The translations under genes were made by a program, and so were the position numbers. From Acidobacteriota bacterium (GTDB taxonomy: Bacteria > Acidobacteriota > Terriglobia > Terriglobales > SCQP01), in assembly GCA_027459505.1 (NCBI GenBank), contig DAIDIE010000013.1, positions 1 to 64,000 of the forward strand: a stretch of 64,000 nt of DNA. Reading direction: 5' to 3'. Shown in pieces: positions 1-11,942 of this stretch (the first letter of the stretch is position 1; each line of letters opens with the position of its first letter). The notes below the pieces were generated by a model, which made no database searches, was not told the DNA's origin, and saw only the letters and a program-made list of their open reading frames with translations.

Positions 1-26
1 TGAGGTGGACCCCAAACGCTGGACCA
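1..26 (+). repeat. IS terminal inverted repeat, transposase-distal end
   Basis: Matches the reverse complement of 1431-1456 at 22 of 26 positions; the inner 21 bases (6-26) match at 19 of 21. It begins with TG as IS3 ends do. The true end could lie a base or two outside the window. Confidence 0.8.
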
Positions 27-258
27 TTTTATGGCCGGATTACGTTAATGGTCGGCAGCGCCGGAGATAGGAGAAGGCGCGACCGCTTGGCCGCGCTTTC
101 TCAACCGTGTTTGGACCGGCAGCGGCGCTCGGGTCGCATCCCTGCGTTGCCCTATCCTCCGCTCCGGCGGCTTCAGTATAGGCCTGCCGGCTTGTTTCCT
201 CAACCGGATTGGCCTCAAGCGTTAAATCCCGGGGGCCAGGGGGCAGAGCCCCCAGTTG

Positions 259-1053
259 TCAACCAAGCGGGCCCGCTGCCCGTCCCGAGAAGATCTGGGC
301 GGGAGTAGCGTAGCCGAGGGCTTGGTGCGGCCGCGTGTGATTGTAGAAATCGAAGTAGGCGCCGATGCCGCGTTCGGCTTCGGCCACCCCGGCGTAATCG
401 TTGAGGTACACCTCCTCGTATTTGACGCTTCTCCATAGCCGCTCCGTAAAGACGTTGTCCAAGGCCCGCCCCCGCCCATCCATGCTGACCCGCACGCCAA
501 GCCGCAGCAGCGGCGCGTGGAACTCTTGGCAGGTGAACTGGCTCCCCTGGTCGCTGTTGAAGATCTCCGGAACGCCATGAACCATAGCCGCTTGCAGCGC
601 CTCCCGGCAAAACACGCCTTCCAGGCTGTTGGAGCAGCGCCAGCTGAGCACGTAGCGGCTGAACCAGTCCAGTACCGCGACCAAATAGATAAACCCGCCC
701 CGCAGGCGAATGTAGGTGATGTCGCTGCTCCAAACCTGCCCCACGCGGGCGATCTTGACGCCCCGCAGGAGATAGGGATAGATGCGATGGCCCGCGGCGG
801 CACGGCTCAGGTTGCGCTTCGGGTAAATCGCCTCCAAGCCCATCAGCGCCATCAGGCGCGCCACCCGCTTGCGGTTCACCGGCCACCCCCGCTGTTGCAG
901 CACCACGGCCATGCGGCGAGAGCCGTAAAACGGCGTTCGCGTGTATTGCTCGTCGATCCACCGCATCAGCCGCTGGTTCTCTTCCGGTTCGACGGCCGCC
1001 TCATAGTAGAGACTGGAGCGCGCCAGACCCAGCAGTTCGCACTGCCGGCGCAC
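259..1053 (-). CDS. IS3-family transposase OrfB (DDE integrase core)
   Basis: A 264-residue rve-type integrase core. The catalytic triad is visible: Asp in WSSDITYIRL, Asp in FNSDQGSQF and Glu in VFTERLWRSVKYEEVY. An HTH_21-like segment precedes it (TPFYGSRRMAVVLQQRG). The GTG at 1053 is only the first start in the open frame. The frame continues upstream with similarity-like sequence (LLCSTERRRLLIEPGH) as far as the A9 run, so the natural product is probably an OrfA-OrfB fusion. The catalytic domain looks intact. Whether this copy is active depends on the A9 run. Confidence 0.88.
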   Translation of the reverse strand: MRRQCELLGLARSSLYYEAAVEPEENQRLMRWIDEQYTRTPFYGSRRMAVVLQQRGWPVNRKRVARLMALMGLEAIYPKRNLSRAAAGHRIYPYLLRGVKIARVGQVWSSDITYIRLRGGFIYLVAVLDWFSRYVLSWRCSNSLEGVFCREALQAAMVHGVPEIFNSDQGSQFTCQEFHAPLLRLGVRVSMDGRGRALDNVFTERLWRSVKYEEVYLNDYAGVAEAERGIGAYFDFYNHTRPHQALGYATPAQIFSGRAAGPLG

Positions 1054-1096
1054 GCTGATCGATGCATGGCCCGGCTCGATCAGCAGTCGCCGCCGT

Positions 1097-1387
1097 TCAG
1101 TCGAACAGAGCAGCTTTTTTTTTGGTCCAGTCCAGCTCCACCTTGAGCCGGCCGATCTCCTCGTAGAGAGCCTGCTTTTCCCCTTCCTCGCTCGGGTCCC
1201 GTTTGGGCCGCCCGTCCTGAAACGCCTCCGGCAACACCTCGAGCGCCGCCCGCTTCCATTGCGATACCTGAATCGGGTGCACGCCGAAATGCCCCGCGAT
1301 TTCGTTAATCGTCCGCTCGCCTCGAATCGCCTCTACCGCCACCTTGGCCTTGAACTGAGGGCTGTACCGTTTGCGCGTCGTCGTCAT
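1097..1387 (-). CDS. IS3-family transposase OrfA
   Basis: A 96-residue protein with the N-terminal helix-turn-helix of IS3 OrfA (YSPQFKAKVAVEAIRGE, then HFGVHPIQVSQWK) and a C-terminal heptad-like segment (LYEEIGRLKVELDW). It binds the IS ends and is normally fused to OrfB by recoding. It ends just after a run of nine A (1123-1115 on the coding strand) read as three Lys codons. OrfB lies in the +1 frame, not the usual -1 frame, so fusion would need loss of one A, gain of two, or a +1 shift. Confidence 0.88.
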   Translation of the reverse strand: MTTTRKRYSPQFKAKVAVEAIRGERTINEIAGHFGVHPIQVSQWKRAALEVLPEAFQDGRPKRDPSEEGEKQALYEEIGRLKVELDWTKKKAALFD

Positions 1388-1430
1388 ACTTTCCCTTGTT
1401 ACGACACCGCCAAAACATTAACCTATTCCC

Positions 1431-1456
1431 TGGTCCAGTTTTTGGGGTCCACTACA
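1431..1456 (-). repeat. IS terminal inverted repeat, orfA-proximal end
   Basis: Partner of the repeat at 1-26. It lies about 45 bases upstream of the orfA start, where an IS3 left end is expected. Confidence 0.8.
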
Positions 1457-1783
1457 AACAGAACCATGACGACACGGCGCATAGGGGAAACCTCCAGCAG
1501 GAGAATACTGCAAGTGCATACAGTTGGCCAGCGCGACTGTGCGCCTCGTTGCCAAAGCGCAGCGGGGCTATGGGGAATCACAACAGCGCCTTCCTGGCTT
1601 TGTGTGGTATCTTTGCGCGACGCGGCGCTTCGAAGCCGCATTTTCAGTTAACCGGGGAGCGGTGACTCGCTTCTTGGACGGCCGGCAGGTTCAGCGTTCT
1701 GCAACTTGGGGAGAACACATGAGAACACGGAGCAGACACACTTGCCTCTCGACTTGGCAATAAATGTGGCCCGCGTGCCCCGC
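1457..1783. other. Gap between the IS and the first DUF4139 gene
   Basis: A 327-base stretch with no convincing gene. A TTG at 1706 opens the downstream reading frame early, but that extension lacks export or domain features. No clear sigma-70 promoter or terminator was found. Transcription of the DUF4139 genes could start here or from the IS end. Confidence 0.5.
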
Positions 1784-3694
1784 ATGAAGGCCCTTGCGAG
1801 AGGTCTCTGCCTGGCGCAGCTTGCGCTGACCCCGCCTTGTCATGCGCAGCACCCCAGCGGTTTACCACTGCGCCGCATCACGCTGTACAAGAGCGGCGTG
1901 GCTTGGCTGGAACGCTCAGGGGCGATCGCCGCCGGCCAGCCGCTGCGCTTGAAGGTGCCGCCCGAGGAAGTGAACTATATTCTCAAATCGCTACGCCTTA
2001 GCGGAGAACCCGGGAAAGCTCCTCCAACCATAAGTTATGGCGCAGCGGACTGGCTGCAGCAGTGGAAAGCCCAGCAACTTGTGTTTTCAGGCGGCGCTCC
2101 CTCGTTCTCCATTGTCCTGGAGCGTCTGGCAGGCGAAAGGGTCAAACTCACCGCCGGCGGACGCACTGCAACTGGCCGCCTGCTGAATTTCGACGCCCAC
2201 CCCGCGGCCTCATCCGAGCCCGGGTTCGCGGTAATGGCCGCCACTCCCAAAGGAGTGATCGCACTTTTTACCGATCATAGCTCGCAAGGCAATCCGGCTA
2301 AAGACCTCACAACCGTGCAGCTCCTGAGCAGTACCCAGGACAACGCGATTGAGCGTTACCTGCGGACTGAATCCCGCGCGTCACTGCAGCCGGGTAGAAG
2401 CTTGTTGCTGAACTCCACGAGCCCTCAGATGATTCACGCCTCGTATCTTCAGCTCGTGCCGGTGTGGAAGAGCAGCTACCGGCTGCGGCTTTTCTCAAAC
2501 GGCCGCAGCCGCCTCGAAGGCTGGGCCGTCATCAACAACGACACCAATGAGGACTGGCGGAATGTCCAGGTCGTGCTCGCTTCTGGCCGGCCACGCAACC
2601 AGCAGGTCTCGCTCTACGATCCCCAATACATCGTGCCCAAGAGCCGGCCCGGTCCGGGTGTCTACGTGGTTACGCCACGTTTCTGGCATTCCAATTTGAA
2701 CGAGATTACCTCGCCCCCGCAACCTTCGCTGGATTACTCCTATAACCTGCACGGGCCGTTTTCGCTCAAGGCACACCACGGGGCCATGGTTCCATTTTTG
2801 ATCGCGCAGCCCACTGCGCACCGCGCCTTCGCCTTCCCTTGGCCAGAAGGTGGGCTGGCCCGCGACACGATCGAGCTCACCAATCCTGGGCCCAACGCGC
2901 TGGCAGCCGGGGTGATCACCGTTTTCGCTGGTAACACCTATCTGGGAGAAGGACGCATCCATGCGCTCGCAGCGAATACAACCGAGCGCTTTTCCTTCGG
3001 GACCGACGACGGATTGACCATACGGCCACTCGATGACCCCTACAGTCTAGTCACTCAGAAAAGCAGGGATGTTCACGCTCGTAATGGCACGATTTCCGTT
3101 TACACGAAGCGCTGGCGGACCCGGCGCTTTCTCGTCAGAGCCTATGGGCAATACGCACATTCCGAGCCGCTGACTTTAGAAACGCAGTTTTCCTTACATG
3201 ATGATGGCTGGACCGCCGCGGGTCCCCAGCAACTGCGGTGCCAGCCAAACGGCGACTGTATCGCCCACTTCAGGATCACACAGCCGCGGCAAATTATTAC
3301 GGTAACGCAGAGCCGCACCAGTACAGAGACGGACGTCCTCGACGCCGGAGCGGTCGATCGGATCGACTCCGATGCCCTGACGCCCGCCGCGGCACGGCGA
3401 GCCTTGGCGCCACTGATGGCAAGCCTTCGCACCTGTGTTGCGGACCGGAAGGCGATTGGGACGCTCAGGCGCCGCCTTCGCCGCCTTGAGCGCCATGCTA
3501 TTCCCTTGCGGGCAGACATTTCCGTTATTAGTCAGATTCACGGACAGGATGACGTTTTGCGACGTTTTTCCGCCGAACTGGTTCGCATGCAGGCGCAAAC
3601 GCAAGACTTGGAGAAAGAGATCCAAGAGGAGCGATCACAATGTTCCGCGGCAAAGGTACAATTCCAGGCGGCCGCCCGGACACTGACCTTCTAA
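1784..3694 (+). CDS. Exported DUF4139-family protein, tandem copy 1
   Basis: A 636-residue protein of unknown function. The ATG at 1784 was chosen because it starts a signal peptide (MKALARGLCLAQLAL...HAQ). An N-terminal strand motif follows (ITLYKSGVAWLERSG, then EEVNYILKSLRL), then the DUF4139 core with VPVWKSSYRLRLF and INNDTNEDW near the middle. A C-x5-C pair (CQPNGDC) suggests a disulfide in the periplasm. The last 100 residues are Arg/Glu/Gln-rich and probably coiled coil, ending in Phe. DUF4139 proteins are related to MuiA (mucoidy inhibitor), but no biochemical role is established. The stop is overlapped by copy 2. No good Shine-Dalgarno precedes 1784. Confidence 0.8.
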   Translation: MKALARGLCLAQLALTPPCHAQHPSGLPLRRITLYKSGVAWLERSGAIAAGQPLRLKVPPEEVNYILKSLRLSGEPGKAPPTISYGAADWLQQWKAQQLVFSGGAPSFSIVLERLAGERVKLTAGGRTATGRLLNFDAHPAASSEPGFAVMAATPKGVIALFTDHSSQGNPAKDLTTVQLLSSTQDNAIERYLRTESRASLQPGRSLLLNSTSPQMIHASYLQLVPVWKSSYRLRLFSNGRSRLEGWAVINNDTNEDWRNVQVVLASGRPRNQQVSLYDPQYIVPKSRPGPGVYVVTPRFWHSNLNEITSPPQPSLDYSYNLHGPFSLKAHHGAMVPFLIAQPTAHRAFAFPWPEGGLARDTIELTNPGPNALAAGVITVFAGNTYLGEGRIHALAANTTERFSFGTDDGLTIRPLDDPYSLVTQKSRDVHARNGTISVYTKRWRTRRFLVRAYGQYAHSEPLTLETQFSLHDDGWTAAGPQQLRCQPNGDCIAHFRITQPRQIITVTQSRTSTETDVLDAGAVDRIDSDALTPAAARRALAPLMASLRTCVADRKAIGTLRRRLRRLERHAIPLRADISVISQIHGQDDVLRRFSAELVRMQAQTQDLEKEIQEERSQCSAAKVQFQAAARTLTF

Positions 3695-5631
3695 CAGTGG
3701 ACGGCAGCCCTATCAGGTGCATCGCTCGCGGCCGCGCACTGCTCCCACAGCGCGGTTGTGCCGCCGTCCTGGCCCTGCTTTCCTTTCTGACGACTGGCGC
3801 CCCGGCGTTTGGTCAAAAGGGCAGCTCACTGGTGCTACGCAAGGTCGTGTTCTATAAGAATGGTGTCGTCCGCCTGCGGCGCTCCGGCGAAATCGTACCG
3901 GAACGCCCTTTAACACTCTTCATACCACCTGCGCAAATGGACTATTTCTTGAAGTCGGCGATCTTTACAGACGATCGAGGACATACTATTCAAGGCCTTA
4001 GTTACCGGGCGGAGAATTGGCTTGATCAACACGCCAGTTCCGCCCCTCTGAAGCTAACCGGCAAGCTCGAACTTGCGGGTCTGCTGAACCAGGCGCCTGG
4101 CGCGCGCATCGAGATCACTCGGGCTGGTAGACCAGGAACCTTGACCGGCCGGCTCATAGACGCCACGTCTACCCGCAAGGGGATTCAGCTTCTGTTGTTT
4201 GCGGACAATGCGATCCGTAGAACACCGCTCCCAGAGGGCGCTTCGGTACGCTTTCTGAATGCGGAGTTCAACCGTGCTTTAAACAGAGGCCTGAAACAAC
4301 GCCTCGCCGCCAGGTTGAATCCCGACAGTAGGATCACCCTCCGGACCGGCGCTAGCCGCTCACTTGTGATGACCTACCTCCAGCGGGCACCGGTCTGGAA
4401 AACCACCTACCGGCTGACCCTGAATAGCGGTAAACAGGCCTCGTTGGAGGGATGGGCACTGATCAACAACGACAGCAACGAAGACTGGAGCAATGTTTCG
4501 GTCACGGTTGCGGCCGGGCGGCCGAGGGGCCGGGAGGTTTCGCTGTTTGCACCGCAATACCTGGCGCCGGAGCCCGAGCACGCCATCTCTGAATCGGGGT
4601 TCCCCATTCCAGTTTCTACTGGCGAATCGGCATTAGCGTTGCCACCCATCTCGCAAATAGAATCGTATGTCTTTCCCCATCCGGTCTCATTAGGCGCCCA
4701 CCACGGCGCGCTGCTGCCTTATCTAAGTGCCCGGATCTCAGCGGTGCCGGCGATTGTGTTTTTCGCGGAAAAGAAGTCGAGCGACGGCTTGAACGCAATT
4801 GATCTGCGCAACACGACTCCGGCCACGATGGACGGTGGAACGGTCACCGTCTTTAGAAAAAAGATGTACCTCGGACAAGGCGCAGTCCGCGGACTGGCCA
4901 GCGGCGCGAGACAGATTGTGACTTACGGCAGAGAGCGACGTCTAGTCTTGACCAACCTCTACCACGCGGGCCGGCCAATGGAGACGACCGCGAGCGAGCT
5001 TCACATTTCGCACGGCAGAATTGCCACCGGAACCGTCCGCACCCGGGTCTGGACCTTCTCGGTTCGATATCGGGGCAAGCGGCTGCCAGGGCCCCTAAAC
5101 CTGCTGATCGCGTTCCACCGGCCAGACCAAACATGGTCCATCCCGCATGCCGCTGCGCCCCCGTATTGCGAGCTGAGTGGAATGTGTCTCGCGCGGTTCA
5201 CCATCCGCTCTCCGCGCCAGCGGATCAGCTTTCGCGAACAATCAACCACCACCAGCGGCCATGCTGTTGGATCAGGAGATATTCCACTGCTGGCGCAATT
5301 TGCGAAGGCCGCGGACACGCCGGCCGCCGCACAGCGCCAGATTGAGCCCATTCTGAGCATTCGGAAGCAGCTCCGTGCCGCGGAGCGTTCCATTGCGATC
5401 ATCACAAGCAATATCCAGGAGCAGGAAGGCGCGGAGGCGGGACTCCGCGAGAACATCGAAGCATTCAGTTTGTTACGGGGAAACGCCGGCAGGGTTAACC
5501 AGCTGGTCACGCAACTCTCGGCAATTGACCTGCGCGTTCAACAGCTGCGCGGCAGGCGCCGCCAGATCCGCCGGGCGCGCACCAGGGCAAAACATGAACT
5601 GCATAGCGCTCTACTCGCTTTGAATTTCTGA
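3640..5631 (+). CDS. Exported DUF4139-family protein, tandem copy 2
   Basis: A 663-residue paralogue of its neighbours. The ATG at 3640 has a strong Shine-Dalgarno (AGAGGAG, 8-base spacing) and overlaps copy 1 by 55 bases. A GTG at 3697, three bases after the copy 1 stop, would give a more ordinary signal peptide, so the start is uncertain. Shared features are VVFYKNGVVRLRRSG, PAQMDYFLKSA, APVWKTTYRLTL, INNDSNEDW, a C-x5-C pair (CELSGMC), a coiled-coil-like C-terminus and a final ALNF. The stop TGA overlaps an ATG of the next frame. Function unknown; probably co-translated with copies 1 and 3. Confidence 0.8.
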   Translation: MFRGKGTIPGGRPDTDLLTVDGSPIRCIARGRALLPQRGCAAVLALLSFLTTGAPAFGQKGSSLVLRKVVFYKNGVVRLRRSGEIVPERPLTLFIPPAQMDYFLKSAIFTDDRGHTIQGLSYRAENWLDQHASSAPLKLTGKLELAGLLNQAPGARIEITRAGRPGTLTGRLIDATSTRKGIQLLLFADNAIRRTPLPEGASVRFLNAEFNRALNRGLKQRLAARLNPDSRITLRTGASRSLVMTYLQRAPVWKTTYRLTLNSGKQASLEGWALINNDSNEDWSNVSVTVAAGRPRGREVSLFAPQYLAPEPEHAISESGFPIPVSTGESALALPPISQIESYVFPHPVSLGAHHGALLPYLSARISAVPAIVFFAEKKSSDGLNAIDLRNTTPATMDGGTVTVFRKKMYLGQGAVRGLASGARQIVTYGRERRLVLTNLYHAGRPMETTASELHISHGRIATGTVRTRVWTFSVRYRGKRLPGPLNLLIAFHRPDQTWSIPHAAAPPYCELSGMCLARFTIRSPRQRISFREQSTTTSGHAVGSGDIPLLAQFAKAADTPAAAQRQIEPILSIRKQLRAAERSIAIITSNIQEQEGAEAGLRENIEAFSLLRGNAGRVNQLVTQLSAIDLRVQQLRGRRRQIRRARTRAKHELHSALLALNF

Positions 5632-5651
5632 TGAAGACAGGAGAATTCACC

Positions 5652-7484
5652 ATGCGACGCTCTTTTGCCATGTTGATCGCCATTCCCGTTGCCTGTGCCG
5701 CTCAGAGTGGCGCGCCACTCGCGCTCAAGCGGATCACATTTTACAAGAGCGGTGTCGCCGTGTTACAGCGCAGTGGGAAGATCACGCCCGGAAGCCCCAC
5801 AACCATCACCGTAGCGCCCAAGCAGATGGACTACCTGCTTAAATCCCTGCGCGTCACCGGCAGCGGCGGTGACGCGATTGAGGCTGTAAGGTTTAAAGCC
5901 GCCGATTGGTTGAACCAGCGTTCCGCGCTTTATCCCTTCTCGATTGAACCGGCTACTCCCCTCACCGGATTTCTCAGCCAACTGCCGGGAGCCGAAGTGC
6001 AACTCACGGTGGACGGCACGGCGCTGAGTGGCCAAATCGTGAGTGCCGGTAGTAGCAAGGCCAGCGGCGTTCCAACCCTGCTGCTTTTCACGTCCAACGG
6101 CCTGGAGAACGTGGACCTGAGAAGAGCATCGGCTGTGCGCCTGGTAAATGCAAAGCTGAACCGCCAGCTGACGCAATATCTTGGCGAGAACCTCCGTGCG
6201 CACCTGAATCCCAACAGCACCGTTGTGCTCGAAACCCGCGGCACCAGATCCATTCGGGCCAGCTACATTCAGCAGGCGCCAGTCTGGAAGAGCGCCTACC
6301 GCTTTACCTGGCTTCCCTCTGGCGGCACACTGCAGGACTGGGCGGTGATCAACAACGACACCAACGAGGACTGGAACAGTGTCCGCATCAGCGTTGCCAC
6401 CGGCAGCCCGCGGACGGAGAAAACCAACCTCTTCCAGCCTGATTACAGCACGGACGGTTCCCTTGAAGAGTACGACATGAACTCCGCCGCGCAGCGGAGC
6501 CAGCTCTCGCCGGAGCCATCGCGGCACTCCGTCTACACCTTTCCAAAACTGATCTCGCTGCAGGCCCACCATGCCACAATGCTGGCTTTCCCGAAGGCGG
6601 TTGTGGCCGCCCGGCGGGCTTTCGAGTTCGACGCCGGCAGCGATCACACCTATGCCACAAACGTGGTTGATCTGCAGAACACATCCGCCAACACACTGGA
6701 CGACGGTGTGATCACCGTTTTTGATGGCCAACGGTACCTCGGCCAAGGCCATGTCTCCCCGCTTGCTAGTGGCGCCCGCGAGCTGATCGCCTATGGGTAC
6801 GACGACTCCGTTCATTTAATTGATCAGGCAGATGGGGAGACTCTCTCCGATAGGAAGAACATCCATGCTAGTCATGGCAAATTGACGATCAAAGAGGTTA
6901 GAACGCGAAGCTGGGACTATGCGGTAAAGCTTACCGGACGCGGGCGAAATTCCACACCCTTTCCCCTTGATCTGATTTTTAAAAGGGCAGGATTCCACTG
7001 GACCATCGTTTCGCCCGCAACGGTGAATTGCGAGGGACTCTCCTGTAACGCCGCATTCACGATTTCGCGGCCAACCCAGGAGGTGGAGGTGCGTCAGCAG
7101 AGGGTCCGGCAGAGCCGTCACACGATCACCCTGGATGACGCTGCGGTTCTGGAACAAGAGTACTTTTCGGGGACGGAAGAGACCCGGCAACAACTTGCAG
7201 GAATCATCCATATCATCGAGTCCTACAAAGGAGCTGCTATGGCGATCGCTCAAGCGCAAACACGCGTTGGCAATCTTGAACTGCTCGAATCGCCGGTTCG
7301 CAAGAATATTCGCACTCTCAATTCGGTGAATGGGCAAGCCCAAACCGTCCAATCCCTCGCCGGGCAATTGGCAGCACTAAACCAGCAGGTGCTGCGGCAG
7401 CGCCAGCGCATCCAGCAGATTGAACAACAGAAAGCGTTGCTGGAGAAGCGCTTCAACGCTGCGTCCCATGCCCTGAACTTCTAG
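5652..7484 (+). CDS. Exported DUF4139-family protein, tandem copy 3
   Basis: A 610-residue third paralogue. The ATG at 5652 was preferred over the overlapping ATG at 5631 because AGGAG precedes it by 8 bases and it begins a compact signal peptide (MRRSFAMLIAIPVACAAQ). Family landmarks: ITFYKSGVAVLQRSG, PKQMDYLLKSLRV, APVWKSAYRFTW, INNDTNEDW, a C-x4-C pair (CEGLSC), a Gln-rich coiled coil and a terminal HALNF. It ends 18 bases before hutU. The three copies are clearly related but diverged, so the duplication is old and retained. Function unknown. Confidence 0.82.
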   Translation: MRRSFAMLIAIPVACAAQSGAPLALKRITFYKSGVAVLQRSGKITPGSPTTITVAPKQMDYLLKSLRVTGSGGDAIEAVRFKAADWLNQRSALYPFSIEPATPLTGFLSQLPGAEVQLTVDGTALSGQIVSAGSSKASGVPTLLLFTSNGLENVDLRRASAVRLVNAKLNRQLTQYLGENLRAHLNPNSTVVLETRGTRSIRASYIQQAPVWKSAYRFTWLPSGGTLQDWAVINNDTNEDWNSVRISVATGSPRTEKTNLFQPDYSTDGSLEEYDMNSAAQRSQLSPEPSRHSVYTFPKLISLQAHHATMLAFPKAVVAARRAFEFDAGSDHTYATNVVDLQNTSANTLDDGVITVFDGQRYLGQGHVSPLASGARELIAYGYDDSVHLIDQADGETLSDRKNIHASHGKLTIKEVRTRSWDYAVKLTGRGRNSTPFPLDLIFKRAGFHWTIVSPATVNCEGLSCNAAFTISRPTQEVEVRQQRVRQSRHTITLDDAAVLEQEYFSGTEETRQQLAGIIHIIESYKGAAMAIAQAQTRVGNLELLESPVRKNIRTLNSVNGQAQTVQSLAGQLAALNQQVLRQRQRIQQIEQQKALLEKRFNAASHALNF

Positions 7485-7502: not shown

Positions 7503-9176
7503 ATGGCGAGCTCCGCCGATCTCGGCGCCCCGGCCCAGCCCATCCGCGCGGCGCGCGGACCATCCCGCACGGCCAAAGGTTGGGTGCAGGAGGCCGCGCT
7601 GCGCATGCTCATGAACAACCTCGATCCCGAGGTGGCCGAGCGTCCCCAGGAGTTGATTGTCTATGGCGGCACCGGCAAGGCGGCGCGCAACTGGCGCTGT
7701 TACCACGCCATCGTGCGCGCCCTGCTTGAACTGCAAGACGACCAGACGCTGCTGGTGCAGTCTGGCAAGCCAGTGGGCGTCTTCCCTACCCACCCCGGCG
7801 CGCCACGTGTTCTGATCGCCAATGCCAACCTGGTAGGTCACTGGTCCAACTGGGAGAACTTCAACGAACTCGACCGGCGCGGCCTCACCATGTACGGCCA
7901 GATGACCGCGGGAAGCTGGATCTACATTGGCTCGCAAGGCATTCTGCAGGGCACCTACGAAACGTTTGGCGCGGCGGCGCGGCGCCACTTCGGCGGTTCG
8001 CTGGCGGGCAAGCTGGTCGTCAGCGGTGGGTTGGGCGGCATGGGCGGCGCTCAACCACTGGCCGCCACCCTCAACGGAGCCGCCTTCCTCGGCATTGAGG
8101 CCGATCCGGAGCGCATCAAGCGGCGCCTGCGCTCGGGTTACTGCGACATGATGATCAACGACCTCGATGAGGCCGTGCGGATTCTCAAGCAGGCGGTGCG
8201 GCAGAAGAATGCCGTCTCCGTCGGCCTCATCGGCAATTGCGCCGACTTGATTCCGGAGCTGGCCCGGCGCGGCATTGTCCCCGACATCCTCACCGACCAG
8301 ACCAGCGCCCACGATCCGCTCAACGGATATATTCCCTCTGGCCTGGATGTCGCCCAGGCGGCGGAGCTGCGGCAAAAGCACCCAGCCGAGTACCAGCGGC
8401 GGGCGCTGCAATCCATGGCACGGCATGTGGAGGGCATGTTACGCCTGCGGGAATTGGGAGCGATTACCTTCGATTACGGCAATAACCTGCGCGCCATGGC
8501 CTATGAGGCGGGTGTGCGGGACGCTTTCCGCATTCCCGGTTTCGTGCCGGAGTACATCCGCCCCATGTTCTGCAGTGGCCGTGGACCCTTTCGCTGGGTG
8601 GCGCTGAGCGGTGAGCCGTCTGACATTTACCGCACCGATCAACTGGTGCTGGAACTCTTTCCGGAAGACGAAGTTTTGCGCCGCTGGATCACGCTGGCTC
8701 GCAAGCGTGTGCGCTTCCAGGGTCTGCCCGCGCGGATCTGCTGGCTGGGTTATGGAGAGCGCGCACGCTTTGGGCAGGAGATCAATCGTCTGGTCGCCAA
8801 AGGCGAACTCAAGGCGCCGGTGGTGATGGGCCGCGACCACCTGGACTGCGGCTCGGTCGCCTCTCCGTATCGCGAAACCGAGGCCATGGCCGATGGCAGC
8901 GACGCCATTGCAGATTGGCCGCTGCTCAACGCTCTGCTCAACACCGCCTCCGGCGCCGCCTGGGTCTCCATCCACAATGGCGGCGGGGTTGGTATTGGCA
9001 ACTCCCTGCATGCCGGGCAGGTGACGGTGGCGGACGGCAGCGCCGCGATGGAGGAACGTATTCTGCGCGTCCTCAATAACGATCCCGGCATTGGCGTGGC
9101 CCGCCACGCCGACGCGGGTTACGATGAAGCGCGCCGCTTCGCCGCGGCGCATCACATCAACATTCCCGAAGTCTGA
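7503..9176 (+). CDS. hutU: Urocanate hydratase
   Basis: A 557-residue cytoplasmic enzyme, the usual urocanase length. It hydrates urocanate to 4-imidazolone-5-propanoate, step two of histidine degradation, using tightly bound NAD. The NAD-binding glycine-rich motif [20 protein letters not shown] and the conserved [17 protein letters not shown] are present. The Cys in [10 protein letters not shown] (about residue 413) corresponds to the active-site Cys of the family. It heads a hutU-hutI-ftcD run. The start is set by conserved length and a -10-like box six bases upstream. hutH, the first step, is absent from the window. Confidence 0.97.
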
Positions 9177-9186
9177 ACGCGTATCC

Positions 9187-10428
9187 ATGTCCCGCCTTCT
9201 GCTCACCCACGCCACCCTATTTACGCTCTCCGGCGCCGGTCAGGCGCGCCGCGGCACTGCCATGCGCGAGCTTGGCCTGATTTCCGATGGCGCGCTGGTT
9301 GTGGAAGGCAGCCGCATTGAATGGGTGGGTCAGACTGCCCACATCCCTCGCGAATATTTCAATACGCAGGAAATCGACTGCAAGGGGCGCGTCATCTCGC
9401 CTGGTTTCGTCGACAGTCACACGCATCTGCTGTTCACCGAACCACGCTGGGACGAGATTGCCGCCCGCCACTCTTCCCTGCCCGAGTCCACCCCGCGTCC
9501 ACATAGCCTGGATCGCGGCATTCAGCGCAGCGCGCGCGAGTTTCGCGAAGCCTCTGACGGCGAACTGCTGGCCAAGGCGCGGCGCCGTCTGGTCGACCTG
9601 CAGGGTTTTGGAACCACCACGGTGGAGGCCAAGACTGGCTACGGTCTCACCAACGAGCAGGAGTTGCGCGCGCTGGAGCTGTTGCGGCGGCTTTCCGCGG
9701 AGAGTCTGGCGGCGGGGCTTCCGGAAATACATCCTACGCTGCTGGCCCATGTGCCCATGTCCGGGACCGCGGAGCAAACATTCGGCTGGGCGCCGCTCAT
9801 CCAACAGGCCAAGACGATGGGTGCCCGCTTTTTCGATGTTTATTGCGATCACGGCGCCTACACGCTGGAGAGCGCGCGCCGCCTGCTGCAGTGCGCCCAG
9901 GCCGCCGGATTGATGCTGAAGGTACACGCCGAACAGCTGCACCCCACGGGAGCGGCCAGGATGGCGGCCGCCCTGGGGGCGGTCTCCGTGGATCACCTGG
10001 AGCGGCTCCCCGCCGATGATCTGGGGACAGTCGCGCGTTCCGCGAGTGTGGCCACGCTGCTGCCCGGCTGCGCCTATTTCACCGGGCCGCCCTGGCCGCC
10101 GGCGCGCGAGTTGATCGACGCCGGCGCGGCGGTCGCACTGGCGACGGACTTGAATCCCGGCACCTGTCCGAGCCTGAGCATGCCGTTCATGCTGTCGCTG
10201 GCCTGCGCGCAGATGAAACTCACGCCCGCGGAAGCCTGGACGGCGGCCACCATCAATGGCGCCGCCGCTTTGGGAATGGCACAGGAGACCGGTTCTCTCC
10301 AGCCCGGTAAACGTGCGGATCTGGCCTGCTTCGAAACCTGCGACCTCCGTGAGGTCGTCTATTCCCCGGCATCGAACCTGTGCGTCTGGGTCATGCAGTC
10401 GGGCCGGATCAGGGAGCAAGCGCAATGA
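9187..10428 (+). CDS. hutI: Imidazolonepropionase
   Basis: A 413-residue amidohydrolase-superfamily enzyme that opens imidazolonepropanoate to N-formimino-L-glutamate. The metal-binding DSHTHLLF lies near residues 75-85, followed by KTGYGL, the second metal region KVHAEQL, and the Asp motif ALATDLNPGT. The ATG at 9187 (MSRLLLTHATLFTLSG) follows hutU by ten bases. The longer open frame upstream is shadow sequence inside hutU. The stop overlaps the next ATG (ATGA), indicating translational coupling to the formiminotransferase gene. Confidence 0.96.
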   Translation: MSRLLLTHATLFTLSGAGQARRGTAMRELGLISDGALVVEGSRIEWVGQTAHIPREYFNTQEIDCKGRVISPGFVDSHTHLLFTEPRWDEIAARHSSLPESTPRPHSLDRGIQRSAREFREASDGELLAKARRRLVDLQGFGTTTVEAKTGYGLTNEQELRALELLRRLSAESLAAGLPEIHPTLLAHVPMSGTAEQTFGWAPLIQQAKTMGARFFDVYCDHGAYTLESARRLLQCAQAAGLMLKVHAEQLHPTGAARMAAALGAVSVDHLERLPADDLGTVARSASVATLLPGCAYFTGPPWPPARELIDAGAAVALATDLNPGTCPSLSMPFMLSLACAQMKLTPAEAWTAATINGAAALGMAQETGSLQPGKRADLACFETCDLREVVYSPASNLCVWVMQSGRIREQAQ

Positions 10429-11942
10429 AACTGGTGGAATGTGTTCCCAATTTTAGTGAGGGCCGCGACCCCGCCGTTCTCGACGCCATTATTGAAAGCA
10501 TGCTGGCGGTGCCCGGCGTGCTGCTGCTGGGGCGCGAGATGGACGCCGACCACAACCGCTCGGTGGTCACCCTCGCCGGATTCCCCGCCGCCGTCGCCGA
10601 GGCCGCCGTGCGCGGCGCCGGCAAGGCCGCCGAACTGATTGACCTGCGCCAGCACCATGGCGAGCACCCGCGCCTGGGCGCCACCGACGTGATTCCCTTT
10701 GTCCCCCTGGAGCTCACGACCCTGGAGGAATGTGTGCGGCTGGCGGAATGGGCGGGCGAGCAGATATGGAAGCGCTTTGGCGTCCCCGTTTATCTCTATG
10801 AAGCCGCCGCGCGTCATGAACACCGCCGCAAACTTGAGGATGTGCGCCGCGGGCAGTTTGAGCAAATTCGCCAGCTCGCGGAAAGCGATGCGCGCTACCG
10901 GCCCGACTTCGGCGACGCGCGCCTGCATCCGTCGGCAGGCGCAAGCATTGTCGGAGCCCGCAAATTCCTGATCGCCTATAACATCAACCTGGACACCCCC
11001 GAGGTTGAAATCGCGCGCGCGATCGCCAAAAAGATTCGAACCTCAGGCGGGGGACTGCCGGCGTTGAAGGCCATGGGAGTTTACCTCGGCGCACGCAACT
11101 GCGCGCAAGTCTCGATGAACCTCACCGACTTTGAGCAGACCTCCCTGTATACCGTCTGGCAAGCCGTCAAAAAAGAGGCGGCGGCCCTGGGCGCGACCGC
11201 GGTGGAGAGCGAAATTGTCGGGCTGGTGCCGGCCCGGGCTCTGGAGGAGTGTGCGGCGGAGGCCCTCAAAATCCGTGTCTTTGAGCCGCAGATGGTGATT
11301 GAAAACCGCCTGCGGCAGGTCACCGCCAGCGAGCCGCTGCGCTGGGAACTCACGCTTCAGCCCTGGATGGACGCGCTCGCCTCGCATGCACCCACCCCCG
11401 GCGGAGGCAGCGCCGCCGCCGCTTGCGCCGCCATGTCCGCCTCGCTCGGCCAGATGGTGGCGGCAGCGACCCTGCGGCGCCTGCGCAAAACAGAAGCGGA
11501 TGCGGCCAAACTCGCCCGCCTGCAGAACCTTGACGGGGAGCTGGCCACGATTCGCGCTGACATGCTGCGCTCCACCGATCGCGACGCGCAGGCCTTTGAA
11601 GCTCTGCGCCAGGAACAACGCCGCTGGCGCAATTTCGAAGACAAGGATGACCGCGGCAGGGCCGAAGCCTACCAGCGGATGCTGGCGGCGACCCTGGCGG
11701 CCGCGGAAGTTCCCTTACAGGTGGCGGTTGCCGCGCAAAAACTGCTGGGGCTGCTGCAGCAGTTGCAACCGCTGCACTGGGAGCTGCTCGCCTCCGATCT
11801 GGTCTCGGCCCGCGCCTTTGCTGAGGCGGCGCGGACCGCCGCCATCGCCAATGTGGAAACCAATCTCGCCGACTTACCACCGGAAATGTCCGCCGCCGAA
11901 GGCCTCCGCGCCCAGCTCCGGCAGTTGCGACAGGCCGGTTAA
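10425..11942 (+). CDS. ftcD: Bifunctional glutamate formimidoyltransferase / formimidoyl-THF cyclodeaminase
   Basis: A 505-residue fusion. Residues 1 to about 295 are the formiminotransferase domain (start MKLVECVPNFSEGRD; conserved LIAYNINLDTPEVEIARAIA), moving the formimino group from formiminoglutamate to tetrahydrofolate. Residues from about 310 on are the cyclodeaminase domain (ALASHAPTPGGGSAAA), releasing ammonia and giving 5,10-methenyl-THF. The ATG overlaps the hutI stop. It completes the folate-linked histidine route to glutamate, so no hutG or hutF is needed. The two-domain form is usual in animals and found in some bacteria. Confidence 0.94.
   Translation: MKLVECVPNFSEGRDPAVLDAIIESMLAVPGVLLLGREMDADHNRSVVTLAGFPAAVAEAAVRGAGKAAELIDLRQHHGEHPRLGATDVIPFVPLELTTLEECVRLAEWAGEQIWKRFGVPVYLYEAAARHEHRRKLEDVRRGQFEQIRQLAESDARYRPDFGDARLHPSAGASIVGARKFLIAYNINLDTPEVEIARAIAKKIRTSGGGLPALKAMGVYLGARNCAQVSMNLTDFEQTSLYTVWQAVKKEAAALGATAVESEIVGLVPARALEECAAEALKIRVFEPQMVIENRLRQVTASEPLRWELTLQPWMDALASHAPTPGGGSAAAACAAMSASLGQMVAAATLRRLRKTEADAAKLARLQNLDGELATIRADMLRSTDRDAQAFEALRQEQRRWRNFEDKDDRGRAEAYQRMLAATLAAAEVPLQVAVAAQKLLGLLQQLQPLHWELLASDLVSARAFAEAARTAAIANVETNLADLPPEMSAAEGLRAQLRQLRQAG

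Follow-up and report, generated by a model that had tools for sequence, protein, structure and literature searches.

Positions 1784-7484 of the 64,000-nucleotide stretch of DNA analysed here (the window) hold three genes for exported DUF4139-type proteins in a row, and the locus raises the question of how such a set arose and what its members do. A preliminary description of this DNA had read the retention of all three genes, together with coupled translation, as a sign of a hetero-oligomeric envelope complex with no known function. The question reaches beyond this one bacterium, as DUF4139 proteins are widespread and almost unstudied.

Organization of the tandem array

Three long and intact open reading frames of about 1.9 kb each were found on the plus strand (Table 1). 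As evident from full-length alignments, their products are 31-35% identical to each other in pairs, and each carries a signal peptide, an NND-x-NEDW core, a Cys pair, a C-terminal coiled-coil hairpin and a final Phe. The earlier account of three diverged, head-to-tail exported paralogues with these features in common was thus borne out by the reading frames, the signal peptides and the alignment. Because the signal peptides ended, on inspection, in Ala-X-Ala-like sites with no clear lipobox, we read the copies as putative substrates of the Sec pathway and signal peptidase I.

In whole-protein scans against the DUF4139 profile (PF13598; curated cut-off 31.8 bits), copy 1 scored 35.2 bits and lay above the cut-off, and copies 2 and 3 and a fourth copy described below lay beneath it with 30.1, 24.6 and 18.7 bits, respectively. 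Scored on its DNA stretch, copy 2 reached 32.3 bits. The DUF4139 matches of all four copies had E-values below 0.002, and every one of the 48 members of a wider alignment matched the same domain. Against DUF4140 (PF13600), copy 3 scored 20.7 bits, short of the cut-off of 27 bits, and copies 1 and 2 gave no match.

Table 1. Positions of the features discussed in the text, numbered from the first base of the window.
Feature	Position	Strand	Basis or remark
IS3-type insertion sequence, TG...CA tips, imperfect 26-base terminal inverted repeats	1..1456	-	repeats, tips, transposases, target duplication
IS transposase orfB (HTH_21, rve)	259..1053	-	domain search
IS transposase orfA (HTH_Tnp_1)	1097..1387	-	domain search
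Copy 4, 5' fragment (MRRVVMVLF...)	1457..1482	-	remainder is contig C20 from base 141 (L026)
One copy of the target duplication	1457-1459		inside the copy 4 5' fragment
Intergenic region separating the divergent copies 4 and 1	1483..1783	.	both promoters expected here
SD GGAGG of copy 4	1491..1495	-	duplex -10.0 kcal/mol
14-codon leader ORF MRTRSRHTCLSTWQ with good SD, stopping 20 bases upstream of the copy 1 ATG	1719..1763	+	SD duplex
Copy 1, exported DUF4139-type protein, 636 aa	1784..3694	+	ORF, Pfam, alignment, model
Cys pair of copy 1 (C486, C492)	3239..3259	+	alignment
SD GAGGAG for copy 2 ATG 3640, within copy 1	3626..3631	+	duplex -8.3 kcal/mol
Copy 2, exported DUF4139-type protein, 663 aa	3640..5631	+	ORF, Pfam, alignment, SD
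Alternative GTG start of copy 2, giving 644 aa	3697	+	SD duplex
Cys pair of copy 2 (491/497 counted from 3697)	5167..5187	+	alignment
SD AGGAG for copy 3 ATG 5652	5639..5643	+	duplex -7.4 kcal/mol
Copy 3, exported DUF4139-type protein, 610 aa	5652..7484	+	ORF, Pfam, model, SD
Cys pair of copy 3 (C460, C465, counted from 5652)	7029..7046	+	alignment; short insertion common to the four copies
Urocanase gene (hutU), 18 bases past copy 3, heading the hutU-hutI-ftcD run	7503..9176	+	domain search, context

The arrangement of the three genes depends on their translation starts, which were compared by scoring SD duplexes. Copies 1 and 2 had been described as overlapping by 55 bases. This overlap is favoured by the good SD of ATG 3640, although the alternative GTG 3697, two bases past the stop of copy 1, also forms a duplex, at -3.2 kcal/mol. 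The one-base overlap that had been read between copies 2 and 3 (TGATG) was not upheld. ATG 5631 has no SD (duplex +0.4 kcal/mol), whereas ATG 5652 is preceded by an AGGAG SD and followed by a clean signal peptide; because the SD sits at ATG 5652, we regard the overlap as an artefact of start choice. The most likely start of copy 3 is ATG 5652, which leaves a gap of about 20 bases to copy 2. Of the coupled translation proposed for the array, the part that concerns copies 1 and 2 remains probable.

The ATG of copy 1 has no SD of its own, and no sigma-70-type match was found in the intergenic region upstream of it. We also observed a short leader ORF ahead of this SD-less start, which might provide a coupled start or leader regulation. 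Downstream of the array, window positions 7503-11942 hold hutU, hutI and a formiminotransferase-cyclodeaminase gene, and judging by their position these histidine-degradation genes may share a transcript with the array.

A fourth copy split by an insertion sequence

The locus had been described as a triplication. Three tandem copies are present, but the set comprises four, the fourth lying on contig C20 of the same genome and being split by an insertion sequence (IS). The window contig (C33) starts exactly at the left tip of this IS, which is 1,456 bases long and has the features of the IS3 family: an orfA with HTH_Tnp_1, an orfB with rve, TG/CA tips, inverted repeats (arms at 5-26 and 1431-1452, extendable to the tips) and a 3-bp duplication. 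With window positions 1-1,500 as the query, the first 140 bases of C20 proved to be the reverse complement of window positions 1-140, and the left end of C20 carries a fourth homologue that has no usable start there.

The triplet AAC lies beside the IS on both flanks, that of C20 and that of the window. Left and right flanks can be paired in 15 ways, and three shared bases occur in just two of these pairs: C20 with C33, and the start of C13 with the end of C29. When the C20 and C33 flanks were joined, copy 4 read MRRVVMVLFALSLACAGQG..., stayed in frame for 638 residues and had GGAGG upstream. Because joining the flanks yields both the AAC target duplication and an in-frame signal peptide, we conclude from the sequence that the IS entered the signal-peptide region of copy 4 and so divided the gene; the C20-C33 junction itself we infer across an assembly gap rather than read through. 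With the IS placed between C20 and the window, the ancestral locus was therefore a divergent four-gene cluster, with copy 4 on one strand and copies 1-3 on the other. The insertion amounts to a natural knock-out of one member.

A distant locus for the fourth copy was also considered and was ruled out, since the first 140 bases of C20 belong to the IS, and both the duplication and the reading frame pair this contig with the window. Ends of the IS recur at contig ends of C1, C12, C13, C20, C24 and C29 of the same genome, and the IS accounts for several assembly breaks. Additionally, the start of C13 and the end of C29 share the 3-bp duplication GTT and probably adjoin, and positions 2519-2858 of C24 (G000) are a diverged copy (88%) of the right end of the IS.

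Origin, distribution and divergence of the four copies

Phylogenies of the copies against their relatives supported a common origin: in trees of 67, 30 and 29 rows, the four copies formed one clade with support values of 100/99, 100/99 and 100/100, respectively. A grouping of copy 4 with the homologue in G001, the only one of this type in the same family, was rejected as an orthologous relationship (AU p 0.0003), and AU p-values of 0.2-0.36 do not settle the order of duplication among copies 1-3. Given the length of the branches, some groupings could be artefactual, which lends weight to characters that are independent of the tree. In particular, each of the four copies has the Cys pair with its short insertion, N234, D236 and H306, and none of these features occurs in the 44 relatives compared, G001 among them; in one alignment, gap placement displaces a Cys in copy 4 (its second) and in copy 2 (its first), and in the other these residues line up. 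Many further residues are common to copies 1-3 and absent from copy 4, so the three are closer to each other than to the fourth. The NND core noted at the outset is present in the copies, although it is a private variant rather than the form typical of the family.

The searches covered 60 relatives and 399, 396 and 397 genomes of the class, phylum and order, respectively; these samples overlap and comprise roughly 1,000 distinct genomes. Homologues occurred in many of them, and no comparable cluster was found among the candidates scored, which in the large searches were the best three per genome. An initial contig search with copies 1-3 alone as queries had returned no relative. Within the same family, one of the 13 other genomes (G001) held a recognisable homologue of the type, in single copy. 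Across the 209 loci that were fetched, many of them short or redundant, the gene was single at 202. The exceptions were the two window stretches themselves, two genes interrupted by a frame break, a locus in SbA3 (L134) with a second copy 2.7 kb away, and a locus in G422 where two very different members overlap by ATGA.

No neighbouring gene was broadly conserved around the relatives' loci. In five same-family genomes, hutU had no family member upstream, and a sixth had too little flanking sequence. A conserved operon with the hut genes was looked for in the relatives and was not found, and adjacency of hutU and tsaD was set aside as a marker of an empty site: the two genes lay on different contigs wherever both were found in the relatives. 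By these comparisons the cluster is a real, lineage-specific and fast-evolving expansion of an under-studied family, adjoining the hut operon; it is larger than first noted and damaged by an IS, and we hold this anatomy and history to be very likely.

The cluster, or its founder gene, could have been acquired by horizontal transfer at a synteny breakpoint beside hutU, a reading that concerns origin only and is compatible with any function. It is consistent with the absence of a gene of this type from 12 of the 13 other same-family genomes, the remaining one not being grouped with copy 4, with the differing neighbours of hutU in relatives, and with a GC content of 56-60% compared with 63% for the window. 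However, the GC difference is modest, the genome searches revealed no donor, and the IS, which entered copy 4 once the cluster was already in place, was not what brought the cluster in. Acquisition is a serious possibility, if short of likely.

Two further readings concern what the copies now do. Redundant copies might be drifting and being lost under relaxed constraint, with no new function. The branches leading to the copies are long, at 1.3-2.5 changes per column where the median is 0.26-0.63. Many otherwise invariant residues are gone: of 39 columns with essentially no variation among relatives, the copies retain 26-28, compared with 99% in a typical relative. An IS, moreover, already lies within copy 4. 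Nevertheless, three frames remain open and have kept their signal peptides, about 70% of the most conserved columns persist, and the derived residues are common to all four copies, from which a changed role followed by constraint would be expected; we find pure drift quite unlikely. The proposed complex would make copies 1-3, and formerly 1-4, distinct subunits of an obligate hetero-oligomer in the envelope, joined through their coiled-coil hairpins. The tandem order, the SD-supported overlap of copies 1 and 2, the intactness of all three frames, the differences in charge from copy to copy and the pair in G422, in which two other family members are coupled through ATGA, are compatible with it. 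On the other hand, the hairpins of all four are net positive and not complementary in charge, the other copies persisted when copy 4 was lost, and the relatives' locus is usually a single gene. Retention of all copies, which had been the argument for a complex, is weak in this respect because no other searched genome has the cluster, copy 4 is broken and relatives usually hold one gene. An obligate complex is, in our judgement, unlikely.

We favour a reading in which one exported gene was duplicated into a divergent cluster whose products have an envelope role, and assign this explanation as a whole a probability of about 0.5. In this reading the ancestor was a single gene for a Sec-exported protein composed of an N-terminal DUF4140-like domain, a small Sm-like barrel, a DUF4139 beta region and a C-terminal antiparallel coiled-coil hairpin. 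It was duplicated at least three times in the acidobacterial lineage, leaving copy 4 on one side and copies 1-2-3 on the other, beside the hut operon, before copy 4 was lost through the IS3-type insertion in its signal peptide; the cluster, the shared origin of its members, their rapid divergence and the loss of copy 4 are evident from the sequence. Copies 1-3 would share a transcript, translation of copy 2 would be coupled to that of copy 1, and each product would be cleaved by signal peptidase I at its Ala-X-Ala-like site and act outside the cytoplasm. There, the lineage-specific Cys pair may close a disulfide on a beta hairpin, the copies may assemble with themselves or with each other through the helices of the coiled-coil hairpin, and these divergent, mostly basic proteins may differ in the anionic targets that they bind in the envelope or at the surface. 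The copies carry +1.5 to +6.0 net charges per 100 residues compared with a mean of 0.1 in relatives, although copy 3 falls within the relatives' range. Such a genome, where one gene has become four and the cysteines and core motif are private to the set, gives a starting point for telling what may vary in these proteins from what must stay.

Predicted structure, function and known relatives

Models of copies 1 and 3 (pLDDT 77 and 84, pTM 0.54 and 0.58, respectively) revealed the same order of parts: an alpha/beta domain at the N-terminus is followed by a small barrel, then by a long all-beta region that holds a disordered loop, and finally by a two-helix hairpin. We also observed that residues 97-173 of copy 3 (about window 5940-6170) resemble an Sm-like/Hfq-type barrel with a middling Z-score of about 7.5, a likeness from which we claim no relationship. 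By sequence, the only matches to solved structures were to coiled coils, and VIA-align matches of the model fell mostly on the coiled-coil hairpin and carry little meaning.

Foldseek ranked a chain of human OST-A (6s7o_E) first, with an E-value of 2.5e-5 and a probability of 0.96, and yeast OST chains (6ezn_A and 6c26_1) third and fourth; the output gives the name of the complex only, and we take these chains to be ribophorin I/Ost1. The TM-scores of these matches were 0.11-0.16 (0.15 for the top hit, with an rmsd of 26.6), and a second structural comparison with the ribophorin I fold showed a Z-score of 8.0 over 284 residues with an rmsd of 23.9. At the level of sequence no homology to ribophorin I was found: a search of the bacterium's own genome with the ribophorin I profile (PF04597) gave no match at E-values up to 10. 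The resemblance of the models is a lead only. That DUF4139-type proteins are prokaryotic relatives of ribophorin I/Ost1, multiplied here into a co-translated, disulfide-bearing envelope assembly, strikes us as very improbable; if true, the likeness would be informative about how a subunit of the eukaryotic glycosylation machinery arose.

A full-text literature search on DUF4139 returned only passing mentions of the domain, so the earlier statement that these proteins have no known function is nearly right. It needs one amendment, as one relative found, MuiA of Pseudomonas aeruginosa, has been studied and is the nearest of that kind; it belongs to the same broad domain family. MuiA has been linked to cell-envelope stress, biofilm and swarming (PMC10418997), and its expression accompanies that of the SbrI regulon when the envelope is stressed (PMC10418997; PMC7603352). 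Copies 1-3 scored 31.4, 39.9 and 21.2 bits against the MuiA subfamily profile (TIGR02231), and because these scores lie far below its cut-off of 112.6 bits, which places the copies outside the subfamily, the transfer of a MuiA role is weak. Among possible roles we tentatively favour that of structural or ligand-binding envelope proteins broadly like MuiA, with its surface behaviour linked to envelope stress; the copies would be partly interchangeable and form no obligate complex, a combination that we rate as somewhat unlikely in its full detail.

Compared with known systems, the copies differ from the DUF4139 and DUF4140 families of Pfam in the C-terminal position of the coiled-coil hairpin and in their additional Cys pair. 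They show weak similarity to MuiA at the level of the TIGR02231 profile, and their likeness to ribophorin I/Ost1 of the eukaryotic oligosaccharyltransferase is one of predicted fold, with low TM-scores and no sequence match. The DUF4139-type genes of Bryobacteraceae and other Terriglobia encode proteins of similar length (about 650-700 aa) with an identical order of domains, and are roughly 20-33% identical to the copies. Unlike the copies, these genes are usually single, and their products are near neutral in charge, lack the Cys pair and have the core DNTTGEDW where the copies have NNDTNEDW. The tandem arrangement itself has a counterpart in the overlapping pair of G422 (L231 4887-9187). In BLAST comparisons the two members of that pair fall with different branches of the family, and a CarboxypepD_reg domain is present in the second; for these reasons we regard the pair as a different duplication. 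Judged by gene order and sequence, co-translated pairs of this family have arisen more than once.
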